Assembly (NCBI RefSeq): GCF_030689645.1
Contig: NZ_JAUYFU010000020.1
Location: 62,001-126,000 of the forward strand
DNA length: 64,000 nt
Origin: Humidesulfovibrio sp.
GTDB taxonomy: Bacteria; Desulfobacterota; Desulfovibrionia; Desulfovibrionales; Desulfovibrionaceae
Reading direction: 5' to 3'
The notes below the pieces were generated by a model. It was not told the DNA's origin and ran no database searches. It saw only the letters and a list, made by a program, of their open reading frames with translations. Positions within the stretch are counted from its first letter, which is position 1; the number at the start of each line of letters is the position of its first letter. Below, piece after piece: positions 1,429 to 14,181 of this stretch. Both the position numbers and the translations under genes were made by a program.

Positions 1429-3906
1429 ATGAACCTGCCCCGGCCCGCAAGCCCATGCCCCCTGCCCGGGGGCGCGGATCTGCTGAATGCGGTGAACGCG
1501 GGCGTGCTGGTGCTCAACCCGGACAACGGCGAGATCCTCTCGGCCAACGACCGCGCCCGGGGCATACTCTGCGCCGGGGGACAGCTTCCGACCCTGGGCA
1601 GCCTGTTCCCGCGCGGCGAGTTCCGTCTGGCTGACCTGCTGGAAGGCGTCAGCGGCGTGGAATGCCGGGTCTACGGGTCCCAGGGCCAGCCCGTGCCGGT
1701 GCTTCTCGCTTCGCGCCTGGTGGAGCGCCCCGACAGCCAGGCGAGGCTCATCCTCACCATCACTGACCTTTCCCTGCTGCGCCGGGCCGAGGCGCGCTAC
1801 CAGAGCTTCTTCGAAAACGTCATTGAGGGCGTTTTCCAGTCCACCAAAAGCGGCCGCTACCTCATGGTCAATCCAGGTCTTGCGAGCATTTTGGGCTTCG
1901 ACTCCCCTGAGGAGCTCATCGCCCACTTCAAGGATCTGCGCAGCCAGCTCTACGTGGACCCGGCGGACCGCGACACCCTCTTCCGCGTCCTGGGTGAGTC
2001 CGGGCAGATCAAGGGCTTTGAGACGCGCTTCATCTGCAAGGACGGCTCCACCCGCTGGATCTCCCTCACCGCGCGCGAGGTGCGTGACCCCACCACCGGC
2101 GAACTTCTGTACATCGAAGGCCTGAACATCGACATCACGGCGCGCAAAGAGGCCGAGCGCGCGCTGAAGGAGAGCGAGGAGAAATTCCGGCACACCTTCG
2201 ACCAGTCGCCCATCGGGGCCAGCATGGTCAGCCTGGACAACACCTTTATGCGCGCCAACGAGGCCTTCACCCGCATCACCGGCTACACCGAAGACGAGCT
2301 CAAGCGCATCACCTTCGACTCCATCACCCACCCGGACGAGCGCGGCGAAAGCCTGCGGCAGTACGACCGGGTCAAACGCGGCGAGATCGACTCCTGGGAG
2401 CAGGACAAGCGCTACATCCACAAGAACGGCCACGAGGTCTGGGTTCACCTTTCCGCCGGGCTGGTGCGCGACTCCTCCGGGCGGCCGCTGTACCTGCTGC
2501 CCATGGTGCAGGACATCAACCACCGGGTGGAGACCGAGCGGGCCATGCAGGCCATCCACGCCGAAAAGGAGCGCCTGCGCTCCGGCCTGGAGGCGGTGTT
2601 CCGCTCCATCCCCGACGCCATCGTCACCGTGGACACGAACATGCGCATCATCCAGACCAATCGCGCCCTCTCCGAGATCTGCTGCATCGGGGAGGAGCTG
2701 CGCCAAGGCAAGGATCTTGCCTGCGCCAGCGGCTCGTGCAAGCGGGGCTGCTTCACGGTGCTGCGCACCACCCTGGAGACCCGCAAGCCGGTGTTCGAGC
2801 ACCGCGTGGAATGCCAGTCTCGCGCGCCGGGCAAGGTGGTGGTCATCAACAGCTCGCCGCTCATCGACCAGGACAACAACTTCGCGGGAGCGGTGCTGGT
2901 CATCCGCGACATCACCCGCCTGGCGGACCTGGAGAAGCGCCTGACGGACCGCCACAGCCACCGGGGCATCGTGGGCAAAAGCAAGGTCATGCAGGACATC
3001 TACGCCGTGCTCGACCAGCTGTCCGACGTGGAGTCCACTGTGCTCATCACCGGCGAATCGGGCACGGGCAAGGAGCTCATCGCCGAGGCGCTGCACTACG
3101 GCGGCTCGCGCTCCAAGGGGCCGCTCATCAAGGTCAACTGCTCGGCCCTGTCCGAAAGCCTGCTGGAGAGCGAGCTCTTCGGCCACATGCGCGGGGCCTT
3201 CACAGGGGCCATCCGCGACAAGATAGGCCGCTTCGAGGCTGCGGAAAGCGGCACCATCTTTCTCGACGAAATCGGCGACATCTCTCCGCGCATCCAGTTG
3301 AACCTTCTGCGCGTGCTTGAGCGAAAGGAATTCGAGCGCGTGGGCGACTCCCGCACGAGAAAGGCCAACGTGCGCGTGCTGGCCGCAACCAACGTGGACC
3401 TCCTGGACAAGATCCGTCAGGGGCTCTTCCGCGAGGATCTCTATTACCGCCTCAAGGTCATGGTCATCCAGTTGCCGCCCCTGCGCGACCGCACGGAGGA
3501 CATTCCCCTGCTCATGGCCCACTTCATCAATCAGTTTCAGGCCAGCTTCGGCAAGCGCATCACCAAATGCTCGGACGAGGTCATGCGGCTGTTCATGACC
3601 TACCCCTGGCCGGGCAATGTGCGCGAGCTCAAGTACTCGCTGGAGCACGCCTGCATCCTCTGCCCCGGAGGCGAAATCGCCAGCGCGCACCTACCGGTGG
3701 ACCTGCTGCGCTTCGGAGAGGGGCACACCAGCCCGCGACTGACGAATCTGCCGACTCAGCGCCGGGTGGCTGGAACCGGTCTGACCCGCGACGACATCCA
3801 GCGGGCACTGGCCCATGCGGGCGACAACCGGACCAAGGCGGCGCGGCTTCTGGGCGTGGACCGGCGCACTTTGTATCGCAATATGGCGAAACATCAGATA
3901 GGCTGA
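1429..3906 (+). CDS. Multi-PAS sigma-54-dependent transcriptional activator
   Basis: 825 residues from the ATG at 1429. About four PAS-type sensory units fill residues 10-500; the last carries a cysteine cluster ([14 protein letters not shown]). Then comes an AAA+ domain with Walker A GESGTGKE, an intact GAFTGA sigma-54 contact loop near residue 589, Walker B TIFLDEIG and the arginine-finger stretch [10 protein letters not shown]. It ends in a Fis-type helix-turn-helix ([18 protein letters not shown]). No response-regulator receiver and no membrane segment, so it probably senses a cytoplasmic ligand or redox signal through PAS. It lies just upstream of a palindrome array and a consensus -24/-12 promoter leading into dctA-frd-fum, which makes that operon its most likely target (inference). 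Confidence 0.9.
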
Positions 3907-3927: not shown

Positions 3928-3987
3928 CGAAACATGTGGCGCCCCACACGTGTGGCGCCACATGTGTGGCATTCGCCACATGTTTCG
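3928..3987. promoter_or_regulatory. Array of inverted half-sites, candidate activator-binding enhancer
   Basis: Half-sites TGTGGC/GCCACA alternate in orientation: TGTGGC at 3935, CCCACA (one mismatch) at 3943, TGTGGC at 3951, GCCACA at 3957, TGTGGC at 3965 and GCCACA at 3975. The outermost arms extend to 14 matching bases, CGAAACATGTGGCG at 3928-3941 and its exact complement at 3974-3987. The array is centred about 140 bases before the -24 element of the dctA promoter, a normal enhancer distance for a bacterial enhancer-binding protein. Assignment to the adjacent activator is inference. Confidence 0.7.
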
Positions 3988-4089
3988 CAAAAAACGAGCA
4001 GTGGCGCTGCGAGCCTGTTAGAAACCCAACACCCCAGAAATAAATGCTTTTCTTTCAGCAAAGCTCCGAAAGTTGAACCAGGGCCGGAC

Positions 4090-4104
4090 TGGCACACCTA
4101 TTGC
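4090..4104 (+). promoter_or_regulatory. Sigma-54 promoter of the dctA-frd-fum operon
   Basis: TGGCAC, five bases, then TTGC is an exact match to the -24/-12 consensus, with ten bases between the invariant GG (4091-4092) and GC (4103-4104). A start of transcription near 4116 is predicted, about 150 bases before dctA. Confidence 0.85.
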
Positions 4105-4268
4105 TCAAACAGACCTTGCGCGCATACTCGGCATGGCCGAATTTTGAGAGGGGGCTCATGCCTGCCGAGGGCGCACGGGGGAAAGGCCGACAAGAGGCCG
4201 AAACGTAGCGGGGGGCCACGCCCCACGCACAACCACGTTCCGCTTTACGCGGTTCAAGGAGCAGGGGA

Positions 4269-5624
4269 ATGGCAGAAGCAGGGGTGAAGAAAGCATTTTA
4301 CAGGTCTTTGTACTTCCAGGTGATCATGGGCATCTGCATCGGCATCGCCCTCGGCGTGTTTTTCCCGGGCAAGGATGGCCTGGCCGCACAGATGAAGCCC
4401 TTTGGCGACGCCTTCATCAAGATGATCAAGATGATCATCGCTCCCATAATTTTCTGCACCGTCGTGGTGGGCATCGCCAAAATGGGCGACATGGGCAAGG
4501 TGGGCCGCGTGGGCCTGAAGGCCATGCTCTATTTCTGGACCATGACGCTCTTGGCCTTGGCCATCGGCCTGGTGGTTGTGAATTTTTACCAGCCCGGCGC
4601 GGGCATGAACCTCGACGTGTCCACCATGGACATGAGCGCGGTTGAAAAATACGCGGGCAGCGCCAAGAAGCTCTCCACCATCGACTTCATTCTGAACATC
4701 ATCCCCACCAACGTGGTGGACGCCTTCGCCAAGGGCGAAATCCTTCAGGTGCTGTTCTTCTCCATCTTCTTCGGCCTGGCGCTCTCCGCCCTGGGCGAAA
4801 AGGCCAAGACCGTCACCAAATTCATCGACGAGTTCGGCAAGGGCCTGTTCAAGGTCGTCCACTACATCATGTTCTTCGCGCCCATGGGCGCCTTCGGCGC
4901 CATGGCCTACGTGGTTGGCGCCCACGGCGTGAGCAGTCTCCAGCAGCTCATGTACCTCATGGCCGGCGTGTACACCACCTGCTTCCTGTTCATCTTCGTG
5001 GTGTTGTGGGCCGTCTGCCGCATGGCCGGCTTCAGCCTGTGGCGCTACCTCTGCTTCATCAAGGAGGAGATCCTGCTGGTGCTCGGCACCTCTTCTTCCG
5101 AGTCCGCCCTGCCGCGCATGATGGCCAAGATGGAAGTGGCCGGCTGCAACCGCTCCGTGGTTGGCCTTACCCTGCCCATGGGCTACTCCTTCAACCTTGA
5201 CGGCACCTGCATCTACCTGACCATGGCAGCGGTGTTTCTGGCCCAGGCCACCAACACCCCGCTGACCCTGAGCGACGAGCTTTACATGATGGGCATCCTG
5301 CTCCTCACCAGCAAGGGCGCAGCCGCAGTCACCGGCGGCGGATTCATCACCCTGGCCGCCACCCTGGGCTCCCTGCACACCATCCCCATCGCCTCCATCG
5401 CCGTGCTGCTGGGCGTCGACCGCTTCATGAGCGAGGCGCGCGCCATCACCAACCTCATCGGCAACGGCGTGGCCACCATCGTGGTCGCCAAGTGGGAAGG
5501 CGCGCTGGACACGGAAGCCATGAACAGGGCCTTCTCCGGCAAGAACGAACAGGCCGAGGATTCCCCGGAAGAAATCATCGACGGCGAAGCCGTCCCTGTT
5601 GTCATCCATGCTGACAAGGGCTAA
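4269..5624 (+). CDS. dctA: C4-dicarboxylate transporter DctA (DAACS family)
   Basis: 451 residues, the family's usual length. Hydrophobic segments run throughout; the serine-rich re-entrant signature [14 protein letters not shown] and the transport-core motif [14 protein letters not shown] are both present. Family members are sodium- or proton-coupled inner-membrane importers of fumarate, malate and succinate. An AAGGAG site stands 7 bases before the ATG. As first gene of an operon with fumarate reductase and fumarase, it would supply the substrate for the enzymes that follow. Closest alternative: a glutamate/aspartate carrier of the same superfamily; context favours dicarboxylates. Confidence 0.92.
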
Positions 5625-5662: not shown

Positions 5663-6322
5663 ATGTCTCTTTCCTCGACCGCCAACCACCCGACCCTGAA
5701 CGCGCGCCGCATGGACGGCGTTCTCGACTGGGCGCAGATGCTCTCCGGAGTCGGCCTCATCGCCTTCATGTGGGCGCACATGCTGCTGGTGGGCAGCGTG
5801 CTCTTAAGCCCGGCAATCATGAACGACATCGCCGAGTTCTTTGAAAAAAGCGGCATGGCCCAGGTGGGCGGCCCGCTCATCTTCCTGCTCTTCATGGCGC
5901 ACTTCGTCCTGGCCGCGCGCAAGATCCCCTTCCGCCTTGAAAACCAGAAGACCATCTGGGAGCACGCGAAGCTGCTGCACCACGCCGACACCTGGCTGTG
6001 GGTGGTGCAGGCCTCAACGGCCATGGTCATCCTCATCATGGGCGCCATCCACATGTGGGCCGTGCTCTCCGACCTGCCCATCGTGGCGCTGAAGTGCGCG
6101 GAGACCCTGCAAAAGAACAAGTGGTGGCTGGCGTTTTACCTGCTGCTGGCCCCGCTGGTCCACGTCCACCTCGGCATCGGCCTGTACCGCATCGCCGTGA
6201 AATGGGGATTTGCAGGCCGCGCCGAACGCAAGGGACTCAAACGCTTTGTTAATGTGCTGATCCTGGTCTCCGTTGGCATCAGCGTGCTGACGCTGTTCCG
6301 GTTCTGGTTCATGGAAGCCTAG
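5663..6322 (+). CDS. frdC: Fumarate reductase/succinate dehydrogenase cytochrome b subunit
   Basis: 219 residues from the ATG at 5663, chosen because GGAGGA precedes it by 5 bases; an upstream GTG at 5648 lies inside this site. Five hydrophobic segments carry histidines placed like the haem ligands of Wolinella-type di-haem FrdC (FMWAHM, HHADTWLW, MGAIHMWA, LVHVHLG). The subunit anchors the enzyme and passes electrons between menaquinol and the iron-sulfur subunit. The gene is 38 bases after dctA and 11 bases before frdA. Confidence 0.9.
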   Translation: MSLSSTANHPTLNARRMDGVLDWAQMLSGVGLIAFMWAHMLLVGSVLLSPAIMNDIAEFFEKSGMAQVGGPLIFLLFMAHFVLAARKIPFRLENQKTIWEHAKLLHHADTWLWVVQASTAMVILIMGAIHMWAVLSDLPIVALKCAETLQKNKWWLAFYLLLAPLVHVHLGIGLYRIAVKWGFAGRAERKGLKRFVNVLILVSVGISVLTLFRFWFMEA

Positions 6323-6333
6323 GGAGATACGGA

Positions 6334-8181
6334 ATGCAGACTATCTACACCGACGTACTCGTCATCGGCGCCGGCCTGGCCGGCGAACGCGCGGCCATCG
6401 AAGCCGCACAGGCGGGCTTCTCCGCCATCTGCTTGAGCCTTGTGCCATCGCGCCGTTCGCACTCCTCCGCCGCCATGGGCGGCATGCAGGCGGCCCTGGG
6501 CAACTGCGCCAAGGGCGACGGCGACTGCCCCGACGTGCACTTCTCCGACACGGTGAAGGGCTCTGACTGGGGCTGCGACCAGGAAGTGGCGCGCATGTTC
6601 GCCGACAACGCCCCCATTGAGATGCGCCGCCTGGCGCATTGGGGGGTGCCCTGGGGCCGCGTGGTTCCGGGCAAAGGCAGCTACTTCAAGGGCGGCAAGC
6701 TCTACGACAAGGAAGAGAAAGAGGAAAACCGCGGGCTCATAAATTCCCGCGACTTTGGCGGCACGGCCAAGTGGCGCACCTGCTACGTGTCCGACGGCAC
6801 GGGCCACAGCGTGCTCTACACAGTGGACAACGTCTGCGCCAAGCTGGGCGTCGAGGTCCACGACAAGACCGAAGCCATCTCCCTGATCCACGACGGCGCG
6901 ACCTGCTTCGGCGCTGTGGCCCGGTGCCTGCGCACGGGCGAGCTGCGCGTGTACCTGGCCAAGGCCTCGGTCATCGCCACTGGCGGCTTTGGCCGCATCT
7001 ACCCCGGCACCACCAACGCCGTCATCTGCGACGGCGGCGGACACATCACGGCGCTGAACACCGGCATCGTGCCCATGGGCAACATGGAGGCCGTGCAGTT
7101 CCACCCGACAGGCATCGTGCCCACGGAGATCCTGGTCACCGAGGGCTGCCGCGGCGACGGCGGCACGCTCCTCGACGTCAACGAAGAACGCTTCATGCAC
7201 GTGTACGAGCCTGAGAAGCAGGAGCTGGCCTCCCGCGACGTGGTGGCGCGCTGGATGACGCACCACATCCGCCAGGGCAAGGGCGTCAAGAGCCCCTATG
7301 GCGACCACCTCTGGCTGGACATCCGCCACCTGGGCGAGAAGCACATCACCGGCAAGCTGCGCGAAGTGTATGAGATCTGCACCTCGTTCCTCGGCGTGGA
7401 CCCCATCCACCAGCTCATCCCGGTCCGCCCCACCCATCACTACAGCATGGGCGGCGTGCGCACCAACAAGGACGGCGCGGCCTATGGCCTGGGAGGCCTG
7501 TTCAGCGTGGGCGAGGCCGCCTGCTGGGACATGCACGGCTTCAACCGCCTGGGCGGCAACTCCCTGGCCGAAACCGTCGTGGCCGGCGGCATCGTTGGCA
7601 AGAAGATCGCCGAGTTCCTGCAAGGAGCAGAGGTCACCTTCAACTCCGCCGTCATCGACGCCGAAGTGAAGAAGCAGCAGGAGCGCATCCAGAACGTCAT
7701 CCGCTGCAAGGCCGGGACCGAGAACGTCTACAAGGTCCGCGCCGCCATGCAGGACGCACTGTTCAAGGGGGCCAACATCTTCCGCACCAAGGAAGGGCTC
7801 ACCGAGTGCATCGCCACCCTGCAGGAAACCCTGGCGCGCGCGCGCAAGGTCGGCCTCAAGAGCAACGGCCTGGGCGTGAACCCGGAACTCTCCGCCGCCC
7901 TCAAGATCGAAGGCCAGGTCAAGATGGCCCTCATGCTCTCCTGCGGAGCGCTGAACCGCACCGAGTCCCGCGGGAGCCACAACCGCGAGGACTTCCCGGC
8001 CCGCAACGACCGCGACTGGCTGTCGCGCACTCTGGCCTACTGGAAAAGCGAAACGGACGACCTGCCCACCCTGAAGTACGAGGCCGCCACGCAGGTGTTC
8101 CACATCCCGCCCGGCGACCGCGGCTATGGCAAGAGCGAGATCATCAAGGCCGATGCTAAGGCCGAGAGCAAGGGGGAGTAG
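6334..8181 (+). CDS. frdA: Fumarate reductase/succinate dehydrogenase flavoprotein subunit
   Basis: 615 residues. An N-terminal FAD-binding GAGLAGERAA is followed by the covalent-FAD histidine region RRSHSSAAMGGMQ. Catalytic-region motifs include HPTGIVPTEILVTEGCRGDGG, here split for length: HPTGIVPTE and EGCRGDGG. HHYSMGGV and the FAD-domain NRLGGNSLAE complete the set. Size and subunit order C-A-B place it with menaquinone-linked fumarate reductases of Wolinella and Desulfovibrio. It catalyses fumarate to succinate, or the reverse, on the cytoplasmic face. The frdB start follows after 3 bases. Confidence 0.95.
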   Translation: MQTIYTDVLVIGAGLAGERAAIEAAQAGFSAICLSLVPSRRSHSSAAMGGMQAALGNCAKGDGDCPDVHFSDTVKGSDWGCDQEVARMFADNAPIEMRRLAHWGVPWGRVVPGKGSYFKGGKLYDKEEKEENRGLINSRDFGGTAKWRTCYVSDGTGHSVLYTVDNVCAKLGVEVHDKTEAISLIHDGATCFGAVARCLRTGELRVYLAKASVIATGGFGRIYPGTTNAVICDGGGHITALNTGIVPMGNMEAVQFHPTGIVPTEILVTEGCRGDGGTLLDVNEERFMHVYEPEKQELASRDVVARWMTHHIRQGKGVKSPYGDHLWLDIRHLGEKHITGKLREVYEICTSFLGVDPIHQLIPVRPTHHYSMGGVRTNKDGAAYGLGGLFSVGEAACWDMHGFNRLGGNSLAETVVAGGIVGKKIAEFLQGAEVTFNSAVIDAEVKKQQERIQNVIRCKAGTENVYKVRAAMQDALFKGANIFRTKEGLTECIATLQETLARARKVGLKSNGLGVNPELSAALKIEGQVKMALMLSCGALNRTESRGSHNREDFPARNDRDWLSRTLAYWKSETDDLPTLKYEAATQVFHIPPGDRGYGKSEIIKADAKAESKGE

Positions 8182-8184
8182 GGC

Positions 8185-8922
8185 ATGGCCAGATCGCTGA
8201 AATTCAACATCTTCCGGTACAACCCCCAGGACTCTGAATCCACCCCGCACATGGAGTCGTTCGTGCTGGAGGAGACGGACTCCATGACCTTGTTCATCGC
8301 CCTGAACCGCATCCGCGAGGAGCAGGACCCAAGCCTGCAGTTCGACTTCTGCTGCCGGGCCGGCATCTGCGGCTCCTGCGGCATGGTGATAAACGGCCGC
8401 CCGGGCCTGGCCTGCCACACCAAGACCAAGGACCTGCCAGCCGACATCACCCTCTTGCCCCTGCCGGTGTTCCAACTGGTGGGCGACCTCTCGGTGGACA
8501 CGGGCTCCTGGTTCCGCGAGCTCTACGACACGGTTGAGTCGTGGATCCACACCAAGAAGGTCTTCGACCCCGCCGCGCCCGAAGAGCGCATGGAAGACGA
8601 GGTGGCCGAGTCCATCTACGAACTTGACCGCTGCATCGAATGCGGCTGCTGCATTGCGGCCTGCGGCACCGCGCGCATGCGCCCCGACTTCCTGGGCGCC
8701 GCTGGCATCAACAAGGTGGGCCGCTTCCTCATCGACCCGCGCGACGAGCGCACCGAGCAGGACTACTACGAGATCATCGGCACCGACATGGGCATCTTCG
8801 GCTGCATGGGCCTGCTGGCCTGCGAGGACGTGTGCCCCAAGCACATGCCCCTGCAGAACCAGCTGGGCTTCCTGCGCCGCAAGATGGGCATCACCGCCCT
8901 CAAGAACTTCTTCGGGAAGTAG
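8185..8922 (+). CDS. frdB: Fumarate reductase/succinate dehydrogenase iron-sulfur subunit
   Basis: 245 residues. The [2Fe-2S] ligands are in CCRAGICGSCG with the later C of LACHTK. A [4Fe-4S] set follows in CIECGCCIAAC, and the [3Fe-4S] region is CMGLLACEDVCPKHMP. This is the electron wire between the quinone-reactive cytochrome b and the flavoprotein. It sits tightly between frdA (3-base gap) and the fumarase alpha gene (27-base gap). Confidence 0.95.
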   Translation: MARSLKFNIFRYNPQDSESTPHMESFVLEETDSMTLFIALNRIREEQDPSLQFDFCCRAGICGSCGMVINGRPGLACHTKTKDLPADITLLPLPVFQLVGDLSVDTGSWFRELYDTVESWIHTKKVFDPAAPEERMEDEVAESIYELDRCIECGCCIAACGTARMRPDFLGAAGINKVGRFLIDPRDERTEQDYYEIIGTDMGIFGCMGLLACEDVCPKHMPLQNQLGFLRRKMGITALKNFFGK

Positions 8923-8949: not shown

Positions 8950-9786
8950 ATGAAGGAAATCAAAGCGGCGGACATCTCGGCGGCCGTGGCGCGCATGTGC
9001 ATAAGCGCCAACACCAGGCTGCCCGACGATGTCCGCAGGAAATTCGAGGAAGGCCTGGCCAACGAGACCACGGCTGCCGGCAAGGAGATCTTCCGCCAGC
9101 TCATCGAGAATGCGGACCTCTCCTTCGACACCAAGCTGCCTCTGTGCCAGGACTGCGGTTTGGCCGTGTTCTATGTGGAGATGGGCGAGGAGGTCGTGGT
9201 TCCCGGCGGCATCAACAAGGCCATCAACGAGGGCATGGTCAAGGGCTATCAGGACGGCTTCCTGCGCAAAAGCTCCTGCGACCCGCTGACGCGAAAGAAC
9301 ACCGGCGACAACGGCCCGGCCATCATCCACATGGACATGGTGCCCGGAGACGGGCTCAAGATCAGCTACATGGCCAAGGGCGGCGGTTCTGAGAACATGA
9401 GCCGCGTGACCATGCTTTCCCCCAGCCAGGGCTGGGAGGGCATCAAGAAGTTCGTGGTGAACCGCGTGGCCGAGGCAGGGCCGAATCCCTGTCCGCCCAT
9501 CATCCTTGGCGTCGGCATCGGCGGCAATTTCGAGATCGCGCCCAAGATCGCCAAAAAAGCGCTCTTGCGTAAACTCGACGACACCCACCCGGACGCGAAA
9601 ATCGCCGAGATGGAGGCCGAACTCCTGGCGGCGGTGAACAAGCTCGGCATCGGGCCCATGGGCCTGGGCGGCAGCTACACCTGCCTGGCGGTGAAGATCG
9701 CCATGGCCCCCTGCCACATCGCCAGCCTGCCCCTGGCCGTCAACGTGCAGTGCCACAGCGCCCGGCACGAGGAGGCGGAGTTCTGA
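8950..9786 (+). CDS. Class I fumarate hydratase, alpha subunit
   Basis: 278 residues, matching the alpha half of two-subunit, oxygen-sensitive [4Fe-4S] fumarases (also related to L-tartrate dehydratase alpha). Cluster cysteines are likely in PLCQDCG (residues ~65-71), KSSCDP and GPNPCPP; the family stretch MAKGGGSENMS is present. It converts malate to fumarate, feeding the fumarate reductase encoded upstream. AAGGAG precedes the ATG. Its stop overlaps the start of the beta subunit (TGATG). Confidence 0.92.
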   Translation: MKEIKAADISAAVARMCISANTRLPDDVRRKFEEGLANETTAAGKEIFRQLIENADLSFDTKLPLCQDCGLAVFYVEMGEEVVVPGGINKAINEGMVKGYQDGFLRKSSCDPLTRKNTGDNGPAIIHMDMVPGDGLKISYMAKGGGSENMSRVTMLSPSQGWEGIKKFVVNRVAEAGPNPCPPIILGVGIGGNFEIAPKIAKKALLRKLDDTHPDAKIAEMEAELLAAVNKLGIGPMGLGGSYTCLAVKIAMAPCHIASLPLAVNVQCHSARHEEAEF

Positions 9787-10331
9787 TGCCCACTTACTCG
9801 CTGAACACCCCGCTTACGGATGCGGACATCGAAAAACTGCGCGCGGGCGACGTGGTGCTCTTGAACGGCATCATCTACTCTGGCCGCGACGCCGCACACA
9901 AAAAGCTGATGGAGCTTCTGGACAAGGGTGAACCCCTGCCCTTCGACCTCAAGGGAGCCTCCATCTACTACGTCGGCCCCTCCCCGGCGCCCCCGGGCCG
10001 CCCCATCGGGTCCGCCGGGCCGACGACCAGCTACCGCATGGACGCCTACGCCCCGCGCCTCATCGCGCTCGGCCTCAAGGCAACCATCGGCAAGGGCAAG
10101 CGCTCCGATGAGGTGAAGAAGGCCATGGCCGGGCACAAGGCCGTGTACTTCGGCGCCACCGGCGGAGCGGGCGCGCTTCTGTCCAAGTGCATCACCGCGT
10201 CCAAGGTCATCGCCTTTGACGAGCTTGGGCCGGAGGCCGTGCGCGAAATGACCGTGCAGGACTTCCCGCTGCTGGTCATCAACGACGCCTTTGGCGGAGA
10301 GTTGTACGCCAAGCCCAACCTCGAAGATTAG
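9786..10331 (+). CDS. Class I fumarate hydratase, beta subunit
   Basis: 181 residues, starting at the ATG that overlaps the alpha stop codon. The beta-type core is clear: LNGIIYSGRDAAHK near the start, YYVGPSPAPPGRPIGSAGPTT, and FGATGGAGALLSK. With the alpha subunit it forms fumarase. It closes the dct-frd-fum operon; a 297-base gap follows before hdrC. Confidence 0.92.
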   Translation: MPTYSLNTPLTDADIEKLRAGDVVLLNGIIYSGRDAAHKKLMELLDKGEPLPFDLKGASIYYVGPSPAPPGRPIGSAGPTTSYRMDAYAPRLIALGLKATIGKGKRSDEVKKAMAGHKAVYFGATGGAGALLSKCITASKVIAFDELGPEAVREMTVQDFPLLVINDAFGGELYAKPNLED

Positions 10332-10586: not shown

Positions 10587-10612
10587 GCAGAACCTGCATT
10601 GCCGGGTTCTGC
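10587..10612. promoter_or_regulatory. Inverted repeat before hdrC
   Basis: Arms GCAGAACC (10587-10594) and GGTTCTGC (10605-10612) flank a 10-base loop, ending 5 bases before the hdrC ribosome site. It could be an operator or an RNA element controlling the hdr-flx operon. A weak -35/-10 pair (TTGCTC, 16 bases, TACGCT) lies at 10520-10547. Nothing else convincing is seen in the gap. Confidence 0.4.
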
Positions 10613-10628
10613 CCCGAAGGAGCCGCCC

Positions 10629-11213
10629 ATGCAGAGCCCCCTGCAGGCCATCGACCTCACCACCAGCCGAGACCAGAGCTTTGTTGAGGACGTGGCGCGG
10701 GAGTCGGGCCAGGATCTCCGAAGCTGCTACCAGTGCGGCAACTGCACAGCAGGCTGCGCCTACACCATGAACTACGACATTCCCGTGCACCAGATCATGC
10801 GCTTGGTGCAGCTGGGCCTGCGGGACAAGGCGCTCTCCTGCCGGTCCATCTGGCTGTGCGCCACCTGCCAGGCCTGCACCACCCGCTGCCCCAACAACAT
10901 CGAGGTGGCCGTGGTCATGGACGTGCTGCGGCACATGGCTCGCCGGGCCGGGCACGCCCCTGAGCGGCTGGTCAAGACCTTCACCGACGGCTTCCTGGCA
11001 TCGGTGGCGCGGCATGGGCGTGTGTTCGAGGCCGGACTGGCAGCCTGCTTTGCCCTCAAATCCGGCAAGCCACTGCAAGACGCCGGGCTTGGCCCGGCCA
11101 TGCTCTCGCGCGGGAAGCTGGCCTTCCTGCCCCATGAGCCGGGCGGAAACGGCAAGGCCGAAGTGGCAGCAATCTTCCAACGCTTCTTGAAAGACCAGGA
11201 GAGCGGCAAATGA
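10629..11213 (+). CDS. hdrC: Heterodisulfide reductase-like subunit HdrC
   Basis: 194 residues from the ATG at 10629, preceded by GAAGGAG. Two [4Fe-4S] motifs are present, CYQCGNCTAGC near residue 35 and CATCQACTTRCP near residue 78. HdrC passes electrons between HdrA and the catalytic HdrB. It is the first gene of a tightly packed seven-gene operon; its stop overlaps the hdrB start by ATGA. Confidence 0.93.
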   Translation: MQSPLQAIDLTTSRDQSFVEDVARESGQDLRSCYQCGNCTAGCAYTMNYDIPVHQIMRLVQLGLRDKALSCRSIWLCATCQACTTRCPNNIEVAVVMDVLRHMARRAGHAPERLVKTFTDGFLASVARHGRVFEAGLAACFALKSGKPLQDAGLGPAMLSRGKLAFLPHEPGGNGKAEVAAIFQRFLKDQESGK

Positions 11214-12196
11214 GCGCGCCCTTGGGCTATTATCCCGGCTGCTCCCAAAGCGGCACTGCGGCCGAGTACGACATCTCCACCCGCGCCTGCTGCAAGGCCT
11301 TGGGCATCGAACTGGCCGACGTGCCGGACTGGACCTGCTGCGGCTCCACCCCGGCGCACACCGTGGACCACCACCTGGCCGGGGCCCTGTCCGCGCGCAA
11401 CCTGCTCCAGGCCCAGGCCGCTGGCTTTGACCGCGTCATCACGCCTTGTCCCAGCTGCTTGTCCGCCCTCAAAACCGCAGACGCCCATCTGGCCCACGAG
11501 ACCTATCGCGCCAAGGTGGAGCACCTGCTGGGCCGCCCCGGCCCCGGCCCAGTGAACTGCCAGAGCGTTCTCCAGGTGCTCTTCGAGCAGATCGGGCCAG
11601 GGGGCGTGAAGGCCAAGGTGACGCGGCCCCTTACGGGTCTGCGCGTGGCCCCGTACTACGGCTGCATCATGAACCGCCCGCCCGGGCTCATGAACTTTGA
11701 CGACCCGGAAAACCCCATGGCCATGGACGCGCTGCTTTCCGCCTGCGGGGCAGAGGTTGTGGACTTCCCCTTCAAGACAGAGTGCTGCGGCGCGGCCTTC
11801 GGCATGCCCAGACTCGACGTCATGCAGCGTCTTTCCGCTCGGATTCTGGACATGGCGCGGTCCTGCGGGGCCGACGCCATCGTGGTGGCCTGCCCTCTGT
11901 GCCAGATGAATCTGGATCTGCGCCGTGGCCAAGTGAACAGCGCTTCGGGGCAAGATATCACCATGCCTGTTCCTTACTTCACCCAGTTGCTGGGCCTGGC
12001 CCTCGGCCTGCCCGATGCGGACCTGGCCCTGGGCAAGCTGGTGCTGCCCCTGGCCCCGGCCCTGATCGCCGCGAAAGAGCGCGAGGCTCAGCGTGAAGCC
12101 CACCGCGAGGGCGAGCGCGCCGCGAAGGAAGCCGTCAAGGCCGGTCACAGGCCCGCCCCACAGCCTGTTTGCGAGGAGGACGCGCCATGCGCATAG
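11210..12196 (+). CDS. hdrB: Heterodisulfide reductase-like catalytic subunit HdrB
   Basis: 328 residues with two complete CCG domains: YYPGC, TCCGS, CPSC in the first half and YYGC, ECCGA, CPLC in the second. In methanogen HdrB these hold two non-cubane [4Fe-4S] clusters that cleave a disulfide. In sulfate reducers the acceptor disulfide is thought to be that of DsrC or a similar thiol protein (established for the family in general, not shown here). A charged tail of about 35 residues rich in Glu/Lys/Arg follows the second domain. Confidence 0.93.
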   Translation: MSAPLGYYPGCSQSGTAAEYDISTRACCKALGIELADVPDWTCCGSTPAHTVDHHLAGALSARNLLQAQAAGFDRVITPCPSCLSALKTADAHLAHETYRAKVEHLLGRPGPGPVNCQSVLQVLFEQIGPGGVKAKVTRPLTGLRVAPYYGCIMNRPPGLMNFDDPENPMAMDALLSACGAEVVDFPFKTECCGAAFGMPRLDVMQRLSARILDMARSCGADAIVVACPLCQMNLDLRRGQVNSASGQDITMPVPYFTQLLGLALGLPDADLALGKLVLPLAPALIAAKEREAQREAHREGERAAKEAVKAGHRPAPQPVCEEDAPCA

Positions 12197-14181
12197 GCGT
12201 CATGGTCTGCCACTGCGGCAACAACATCGCCGCCACCGTGGACTGCGAGGCCGTGGCCGCAGCAGCCCGCGAGTTTCCGGACGTGGTCTACGCCACTGAC
12301 CACATGTACGCCTGCTCCGATCCGGGCCAGAAGACCATCGAGCAGACCATCCGCGACCTGAAGCTCGACGGCGTTGTGGTGGCCTCCTGCTCGCCCCGCA
12401 TGCACGAGATGACCTTCCGCCGGGCCGTGGAGCGCGCCGGGCTGAACCGCTACATGTTCGAGATGGCCAACATCCGCGAGCATGTGGCCTGGATTTCCCT
12501 TGACCGCAAGCGCAACACCCAGAAAGCCACGGATCTGGTGCGCATGGCCGTTGAAAAGCTGCGCGTGGACCGGCCCCTGACCCCCAAGAGCTTCGACGTG
12601 CAGAAGCGCGTGCTCATCGTGGGCGGCGGCGTGGCCGGCATCCAGGCCGCGCTGGACTGCGCCGACGGCGGGCTGGACGTGCTGCTGGTGGAGCGCAAGG
12701 CCTCCATCGGCGGCATCATGAGCAAGCTCGACAAGACTTTTCCCACCATCGACTGCTCCGTGTGCGTGCTGGGCCCCAAGATGGTGGACGCGGGCCAAAA
12801 CCCACGCATCACCCTGCACACCTGCTCCGAGGTGGAGGAGGTGTCGGGCTATGTGGGCAATTTCGAGGTCAAGATCCGCAAGCGCACCACCTATGTGGAC
12901 TGGACAAAATGCACGGGCTGCGGCGCCTGCCAGGAGAAATGCCCCAGCAGGAAGGTGCCCGACGCTTTCAACGAGAACATCAGCCTGACCACGGCCATCA
13001 ACATTCCCTTTCCCCAGGCCATTCCCAAGCGCGCGACCATAAACGCCGCCCACTGCATCCGCCTCACCAAGGGCAAGTGCGGCGCCTGCGCCAAGATCTG
13101 CCCCACCGGGGCCATTGACTACGAGATGCAGGACGAGATCATCACCGAAAAGGTGGGAGCGATCATCGCTGCCACGGGCATCACGCTCTTCGACCACACC
13201 AGGCTGGGCGAATACGGGGCAGGGCGCTATCCGGACGTGGTCACCTCACTGGCCTATGAGCGCATGCTCTCGGCCTCCGGCCCAACCGCCGGGCACATCA
13301 AGCGCCCCAGCGACGGACGCGAGCCCAAGACCGTGGTGTTCATCTCCTGCGTGGGCAGCCGCGACCGCAGCGTTGACCGGCCTTACTGCTCCGGGTTCTG
13401 CTGCATGTACACGGCCAAGCAGGCCATCCTGACCCGCGACCACATCCCGGACTCCAAGGCCTTCGTGTTCTACATGGACATCCGCGCCAACGGGAAGGGC
13501 TACGAGGAGTTCGTGCGCCGCGCCCAGGAAGAATACGCAGTGGAGTACGTGCGTGGCCGCGTGGCCCACATATACCCCACTGCGGGCCCGGATGGCGGGC
13601 AGCTCATGGTGCGCGGGGCGGACACGCTTCTGGGCGCGCAGGTGGAGGTGGCGGCGGACCTGGTGGTGCTGGCAGTGGGCGCGGAGTCGTCTACGGGTGC
13701 GCCGGAGCTGGCGGAAAAACTGCACATTTCCTACGATCATTACGGCTTCTTCATGGAGAGTCACCCCAAGCTGCGCCCGGTTGAGACCAACACCGTGGGC
13801 ATCTTTTTGGCTGGCGCCTGCCAGGGACCGAAAGACATCCCGGCCAGCGTGGCCCAGGCCAGCGCAGCCGCAGGCAAGGTGCTGGCCCTGCTCTCCAAGG
13901 ACAAGCTTGAAAGCGATCCGCAGATCGCCCTGGTCCAGGCCATCCGCTGCATCGGCTGCGGCAAGTGCGAACGCACCTGCCCCTTCGGCGCCATCCGCAT
14001 GCGCGAGCTGCGCGACGGCTCCAAGCGCGCCGAAGTGGTGGAGACCGTGTGCCAGGGCTGCGGCATCTGCAGCGTCACCTGTCCCGTGCGGGCCATCCAG
14101 CTCCAGCACTTCACCGACTCGCAATTGCTCGCGGAGGTCAATGCCCTATGCAGGACATGGGACGAGACTACAGAATCATAG
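12187..14181 (+). CDS. hdrA: Heterodisulfide reductase-like bifurcating subunit HdrA
   Basis: 664 residues from the ATG at 12187 (GAGGAGG just upstream). The N terminus CHCGNN begins the HdrA N-domain. An FAD-binding VGGGVAGIQ lies near residue 145. The HdrA cysteine segment TIDCSVC follows, with cysteine where some relatives have selenocysteine. [4Fe-4S] motifs are CTGCGACQEKCP (~242) with CGACAKICP, and C-terminal CIGCGKCERTCP (~588) and CQGCGICSVTCP (~621). This subunit carries the flavin proposed to split electrons between ferredoxin and the HdrB disulfide. It overlaps hdrB and flxD. Confidence 0.95.
   Translation: MRIGVMVCHCGNNIAATVDCEAVAAAAREFPDVVYATDHMYACSDPGQKTIEQTIRDLKLDGVVVASCSPRMHEMTFRRAVERAGLNRYMFEMANIREHVAWISLDRKRNTQKATDLVRMAVEKLRVDRPLTPKSFDVQKRVLIVGGGVAGIQAALDCADGGLDVLLVERKASIGGIMSKLDKTFPTIDCSVCVLGPKMVDAGQNPRITLHTCSEVEEVSGYVGNFEVKIRKRTTYVDWTKCTGCGACQEKCPSRKVPDAFNENISLTTAINIPFPQAIPKRATINAAHCIRLTKGKCGACAKICPTGAIDYEMQDEIITEKVGAIIAATGITLFDHTRLGEYGAGRYPDVVTSLAYERMLSASGPTAGHIKRPSDGREPKTVVFISCVGSRDRSVDRPYCSGFCCMYTAKQAILTRDHIPDSKAFVFYMDIRANGKGYEEFVRRAQEEYAVEYVRGRVAHIYPTAGPDGGQLMVRGADTLLGAQVEVAADLVVLAVGAESSTGAPELAEKLHISYDHYGFFMESHPKLRPVETNTVGIFLAGACQGPKDIPASVAQASAAAGKVLALLSKDKLESDPQIALVQAIRCIGCGKCERTCPFGAIRMRELRDGSKRAEVVETVCQGCGICSVTCPVRAIQLQHFTDSQLLAEVNALCRTWDETTES

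Follow-up and report, generated by a model that had tools for sequence, protein, structure and literature searches.

Organisation of the locus

The locus examined here raises the question of what a dense cluster of inverted hexamers does between the gene for a sigma-54 activator and a sigma-54 promoter, and whether it represents the site through which this activator controls the downstream genes for C4-dicarboxylate uptake and fumarate respiration. The cluster lies in a 64,000-nucleotide stretch of Humidesulfovibrio sp. DNA, referred to below as the window, to which the following features were assigned.

1429..3906, + strand: activator (bEBP) gene, encoding PAS, AAA+ with GAFTGA and C-terminal Fis-type HTH domains (Pfam, alignment; start codon predicted)
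3928..3941, + strand: left outer arm of a 14-base exact inverted repeat, with 7 flanking bases specific to this genome
3935-3940: half-site 1, TGTGGC
3943-3948: half-site 2, CCCACA, one mismatch
3951-3956: half-site 3, TGTGGC
3957-3962: half-site 4, GCCACA
3965-3970: half-site 5, TGTGGC
3975-3980: half-site 6, GCCACA
3935..3948, unstranded: dyad I, TGTGGC-N2-CCCACA
3951..3962, unstranded: dyad II, TGTGGC-N0-GCCACA; spacer 0 in 13/13 arrays compared
3965..3980, unstranded: dyad III, TGTGGC-N4-GCCACA (TGT-N10-ACA geometry); spacer 4 in 11/13 arrays
3974..3987, + strand: right outer arm of the 14-base exact inverted repeat
3988..4089, unstranded: linker between array and promoter, 50% G+C as against 65% for the window; putative loop
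4090..4104, + strand: sigma-54 promoter TGGCACACCTATTGC (-24/-12), a perfect TGGCAC-N5-TTGC
4116..4116, + strand: expected transcription start, predicted from the -24/-12 spacing
4269..5624, + strand: dctA, C4-dicarboxylate transporter (Pfam SDF; NCBIfam DctA 623 bits, cut-off 513)
5663..6322, + strand: frdC, fumarate reductase/succinate dehydrogenase cytochrome b subunit (Pfam)
6334..8181, + strand: frdA, flavoprotein subunit (Pfam)
8185..8922, + strand: frdB, iron-sulfur subunit (Pfam)
8950..9786, + strand: fumA, fumarase alpha part (Pfam Fumerase)
9780..10331, + strand: fumB, fumarase beta part (Pfam Fumerase_C; start uncertain)

The six TGTGGC/GCCACA half-sites span 46 bases (positions 3935-3980). 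The sequence-only reading, which had described six half-sites framed by 14-base exact outer arms, was right as to their positions, but just five of the six are exact, the one at 3943-3948 carrying a single mismatch, and while the arms are exact in the window, relatives do not share their 7-base extensions beyond the half-sites. The perfect TGGCAC-N5-TTGC element that it had placed about 100 bases after the array is indeed present, 109 bp past the half-sites, and the centre of dyad II is 134 bp from the -24 element, so that specific sites precede a -24/-12 promoter by roughly 100 bp or more, as is characteristic of an enhancer. The 15-mer pattern TGGCAC-N5-TTGC was found 15 times genome-wide as compared to once for a reversed control pattern. 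The genes after the promoter are ordered dctA-frdCAB-fumAB and are followed at 10599-14178 by hdrC/hdrB/hdrA-like genes, in the same order in congeners, which possibly provide an electron-transfer link to fumarate reduction. An IHF-like site considered in the linker agreed at just 7/9 positions and was dropped.

The activator

The product of the upstream gene matches the AAA+ sigma-54 interaction domain and a Fis-type HTH (Pfam PF00158, PF25601 and PF02954) and carries the GAFTGA motif, which is present in 8/8 aligned proteins (alignment A2, L016 left out); its earlier identification as a sigma-54 activator with an intact GAFTGA loop is thereby borne out by both the translation and the orthologue alignment. 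A low-confidence AlphaFold model (mean pLDDT 57.7, unused for fold search) suggests four PAS-like units followed by the AAA+ and HTH domains. Pfam returned no Response_reg match for a receiver domain, and no GAF domain, PAS domains being present instead. Among the NCBIfam equivalog matches listed, the best being PrdR, NifA, AtoC and NorR, the protein is below cut-off in every case (NorR 306.7 as against 476 bits; NifA 344.4 as against 528.85 bits), and since it also has no receiver domain it is none of NorR, NifA and DctD. Five cysteines (C421, C422, C440, C444 and C465) in the last PAS-like unit are invariant in eight aligned orthologues; they lie within residues 421-465 (bases about 2680-2815), and it may be speculated that this cluster is a redox element or metal sensor.

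The C-terminal recognition helix of array-linked activators reads R(R/K)TLYRN in 34/34 cases, whereas in all 11 related activators examined from array-free genomes the residue following TLYR or TFYR is K or R, these 11 being a choice among weaker matches (E<=1e-150, <600 bits) in 43 genomes. The recognition helix thus separates array-linked activators from their paralogues at the level of protein sequence.

Conservation of the array with the activator

The activator has orthologues, at 76-88% identity, in 13 of the 14 congeners examined (G001-G014). The region that follows the gene is readable in 11 of these, the exceptions being G002, in which it is masked as N, and G007, where a contig end interrupts it, and in all 11 the array is followed by TGGCAY-N5-TTGC, an arrangement also found in G019, which belongs to another genus (g6). 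In G007 the array is retained where the frd contig begins, and the TGGCACGGCAAATGC after it differs by one base from the pattern used. In this genome dctA has shrunk to a 120-residue open frame joining its two ends (L176 8580-8942), with the array and near-consensus promoter persisting before frdC. A footprint alignment of 12 regions, including that of the window, showed identities of 83% for the array and 92% for the promoter, as compared to 48% for the linker and 53% for the leader. The distance from array centre to -24 across 13 genomes is 134-135 bp in five and 120-124 bp in eight.

The remaining congener, G003, is of the same genus and retains synteny, but has none of activator, array, promoter and dctA, and a phosphatase-like neighbour gene stands directly before frdC; no TGTGGC, GCCACA, TGGGGC or GCCCCA was found in the 480-base gap. 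Its fumA and part of hdrA are 84-93% identical to those of the window (L249 8455-9588), whereas frdC and frdA are just 54% and 71% identical, so that the frd block may have been replaced, possibly when activator and array were lost.

A profile based on sequence only was built from 13 arrays, 12 from genus g1 and that of G019 from g6, several of which have degenerate half-sites; four loci were omitted from the alignment, L009 since its activator is cut by a contig end, L017 for masking as N, L019 because its array lies elsewhere and L021 on account of a contig end. The alignment gave a half-site consensus of TGTGGCG, with GGC most rigid. Within the family (288 genomes) the profile matched at E<=0.001 in 26 genomes, while in 24 genomes of other families of the same order no match below E 0.04 was found. 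Activator orthologues above 600 bits are encoded by 35 genomes of five genera, and profile matches were obtained in 25 of these 35 as compared to 1 of the 253 genomes without an orthologue (Fisher p 7e-27); with g1 and g6 left out, the counts are 11/20 and 1/252 (Fisher p 1.6e-13). These p-values ignore phylogenetic relatedness, and as the genomes are related the counts do not represent independent events. The ten misses comprise the masked G002 and nine diverged arrays (seven in g51, one each in G183 and G071) seen on inspection before a sigma-54 site, and therefore all 34 readable genomes possess the array in some form. The weakest are those of G285 and G294 (g51), each with three half-site matches, one of them exact. 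The adjoining promoters fit the pattern in 33 of the 34, that of G007 being the exception. The array is kept with, and only with, its putative cognate activator, as expected of an enhancer.

The search of relatives for half-sites beside sigma-54 promoters that the sequence-only reading had proposed was thus productive, arrays preceding the promoter in 34/34 readable genomes, and a lack of repeat conservation at the same gene order, which it had named as evidence against itself, was looked for and was not what we found. A less strict pattern, GTGGCGCCACNNNNGTGGC allowing one mismatch, matched many sites by chance in other genomes and was discarded, a weak profile match in G164 (E 9e-4), with neither a promoter nor operon genes in the 4 kb stretch containing it, was treated as chance, and no match to the intergenic region was found in a plasmid collection.

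The array accompanies the promoter

Position alone cannot tell which gene the array serves, as activator, array, promoter and operon adjoin one another in most genomes. Five genomes split the activator from the array. About 4.6 kb separates the activator from array-promoter-dctA-frd-fum in G023, and about 5 kb separates it from array and promoter in G185; the array precedes the second of two dctA genes in G188; in G183 it precedes frdC, a dctA separating it from the activator; and in G071 the activator is located on another contig while the array and TGGCACAAACCTTGC stand before frdC. In these arrangements the array follows the target promoter rather than the 3′ end of the activator gene.

Further targets are indicated by duplicated arrays. 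In G008 the first array precedes a DASS-type transporter gene and a second array with promoter precedes frdC, and G019 harbours a second array and sigma-54 promoter before a malic enzyme gene (L177 6147-7704), which on this sequence evidence is a predicted second regulon member in that genus. In G287 and G294 (g51) the contig stops short of the next gene, the target being outside the readable DNA. The target genes share one theme, namely C4-dicarboxylate uptake and conversion. The DASS-family gene of G008 (L175 2918-4522) occupies the place of dctA behind array and promoter, and a start resembling it lies behind array and promoter in G001 and G004.

Architecture of the array

In genus g1 the array consists of three successive dyads, 15-17 bp apart from centre to centre. 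Centre distances of 16.0/16.0 were found in 9/13 arrays, with the window (15/16), G001 (17/16), G011 (17/15.5) and G019 (16/18) as exceptions, and a fixed 16 bp spacing was dropped as a rule as 4/13 arrays deviate. The spacers within dyads are mostly 0,0,4 or 4,0,4 in the genus: that of the first dyad is 0, 2 or 4 among the 13 arrays and that of the last, where it departs from 4, is 3 in G011 and 0 in G019. The spacers of 2, 0 and 4 bases, to which significance had been attached as a set, differ between species, and other genera order their half-sites otherwise, so that these values do not make up a fixed code. While three dyads are present in the 13 arrays, genera g10 and g51 have five or six half-sites in other orders, mostly at 0, 10, 20, 26-31 and 42-43 in g10, with a g51 layout of > 0, < 10, < 22, > 30, < 42, < 55. 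The number of half-sites thus stays near six while their arrangement varies. Helical phasing pooled over 32 arrays is above random, and holds for g51, g10 regular and the g1 layout 4-2-0-2-4, but it fails for the g1 layout 0-4-0-2-4, G019 and G023, for which reason it is not claimed as a general rule.

Function of the array

Judged from these sequence comparisons, the array probably serves the adjacent activator as its upstream activating sequence (enhancer), driving dctA-frdCAB-fumAB, a reading to which we assign a probability of about 0.87. The module of activator, array, sigma-54 promoter and fumarate operon proposed from the window is strongly supported by conservation, by the breaks in synteny, by the concerted absence in G003 and by covariation of the HTH. 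Within-dyad spacings of 0, 2, 3 or 4 count against an enhancer, as they are unusual for a rigid HTH dimer, and so do the layouts in which helical phasing fails and the degeneracy of several g51 arrays.

Were the array bound by another regulator, of Crp/Fnr type or a repressor, acting together with the adjacent activator, the spacing of dyad III would find a ready explanation, as it equals that of Crp-type and TGT-N10-ACA sites, the Crp/Fnr-type geometry being TGTG-N8-CACA. Dyad II, with its spacer of 0, departs from that spacing in all 13 arrays, however, and no Crp/Fnr gene was seen within the operon; the presence of the array tracks the adjacent activator across genomes, both being absent from G003, and array-linked activators have a distinct recognition helix in common. 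Such a regulator is therefore considered unlikely. The repeats could also act as nucleic-acid structure, that is as a terminator, an attenuator hairpin or an extruded cruciform, the last of which had been suggested by the sequence-only reading. The array of the window does fold as RNA at -42.4 kcal/mol (z -6), and the arrays of relatives fold better than their shuffles (z -1.1 to -9.0), as would any array of inverted repeats, but neither a terminator-like site with a T tract (0 found) nor an Rfam match was detected. Among 234 half-site pairs in the 13 arrays, 208 are unchanged and 26 have changed on one side, with no case of change on both; the 26 one-sided as against 0 compensatory changes argue against a cruciform or RNA stem, and are the pattern that the sequences of independent protein-contact sites, rather than of a maintained stem, would be expected to show. 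The arm extensions occur in the window only, the predicted folds of relatives differ, some half-sites have no partner in g10 and g51, and the array is not at the 3′ end of the activator gene in five genomes. With all substitutions one-sided, the arms not conserved and unpaired half-sites in other genera, the extruded structure is not supported, and a structural role of any kind appears very improbable.

A dispersed palindromic element of the REP/BIME kind can hardly account for the array, palindromic and intergenic though it is, and nor can a common hexamer that clusters by chance. TGTGGC is common, but its 60 occurrences in the window compare with 55 expected and do not amount to over-representation; exact half-sites elsewhere in the window cluster in groups of two at most, and in 300 simulated 64 kb windows there were never more than three in 46 bp, as compared to the five exact half-sites observed. 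REP/BIME elements occur in many copies, whereas the profile finds a single locus at E<=1 in the window's own genome (G000), and in the operon loci inspected the array adjoins a sigma-54 promoter.

For the array as an enhancer, a mechanism may be proposed. Enhancer-binding proteins bind upstream sites, form an AAA+ ring and remodel sigma-54 polymerase across a DNA loop. By analogy, the Fis-type HTH domains of the activator would bind the six TGTGGC half-sites, and a signal received by the PAS domains, perhaps a C4-dicarboxylate or the redox state, would cause the AAA+ domains to assemble at the array as a higher-order ring, presumably a hexamer; the cooperative oligomer loading suggested by the sequence-only reading is likewise a proposal. 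This ring may contact the promoter by looping of the linker of approximately 110 bp, and the use of ATP would open the promoter and switch on dctA-frdCAB-fumAB. Whether the enhancer also serves as a loading template, in which each of the six HTHs in an AAA+ ring is matched by one of the six half-sites, is more doubtful; tentatively, such a template might extend over some 46-60 bp without a fixed dimer geometry, and lineages could then conceivably keep about six half-sites and the promoter distance while rewiring order and spacing (> < > < > < in g1; > < < > < < in g51). Should this be true, the arrays would represent a natural series for learning the grammar of bacterial enhancers.

Comparison with known systems

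Sigma-54-dependent activation of the C4-dicarboxylate transporter gene dctA is known from DctB/DctD, and the system described here resembles it in placing a C4-dicarboxylate transporter gene under putative sigma-54 control. DctD is a response regulator, however, whereas the activator of the window is without a receiver domain and no partner kinase was identified, and the operon of the window additionally encodes fumarate reductase and fumarase. The upstream activator sequence of NifA is TGT-N10-ACA; the dyads with a spacer of 4 share this geometry, and the activator shares the Fis-type HTH, but the dyads with a spacer of 0 do not fit the motif and the predicted target is fumarate respiration. 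The class of regulator is shared with the one-component activators of Desulfovibrio vulgaris, a related sulfate reducer, of which 6/15 are described as having PAS domains and some as having motifs with TGT/ACA half-sites 9, 11 or 12 bp apart (Kazakov et al. 2015, PMC4641369); the main text of that paper contains no fumarate, dctA, fumarase, succinate or TGTGGC. No description of the present regulator or array was found in the main text of open-licence PMC papers, and it would therefore appear that, although mechanisms of this kind are known, the activator and its unusually dense site have not been described in that literature. An unnamed subfamily of activators in the Desulfovibrionaceae gains from the analysis a probable target on the DNA and a probable regulon, concerned with the uptake of C4-dicarboxylates and with fumarate respiration. 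A very dense sigma-54 enhancer is also made available in more than 30 naturally varying forms, accompanied by a matching change of the recognition helix, as tests of ring loading on DNA.

A further parallel is that with NorR of Escherichia coli, for which three sites upstream of the norVW sigma-54 promoter are described as scaffolding a higher-order oligomer, all three being needed (PMC2941729, PMC8899819). Both cases, as far as these accounts of NorR extend, involve a sigma-54 activator with several adjacent sites upstream of a sigma-54 promoter. They differ in that NorR senses NO through a GAF domain, where the activator of the window has PAS domains, and in that the array packs its half-sites into 46-60 bp with inner spacers of 0-4, and adopts non-dyad layouts elsewhere. 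The best reading of this analogy is that the array would work like the three-site enhancer of NorR, as a compact version of it composed of six half-sites.
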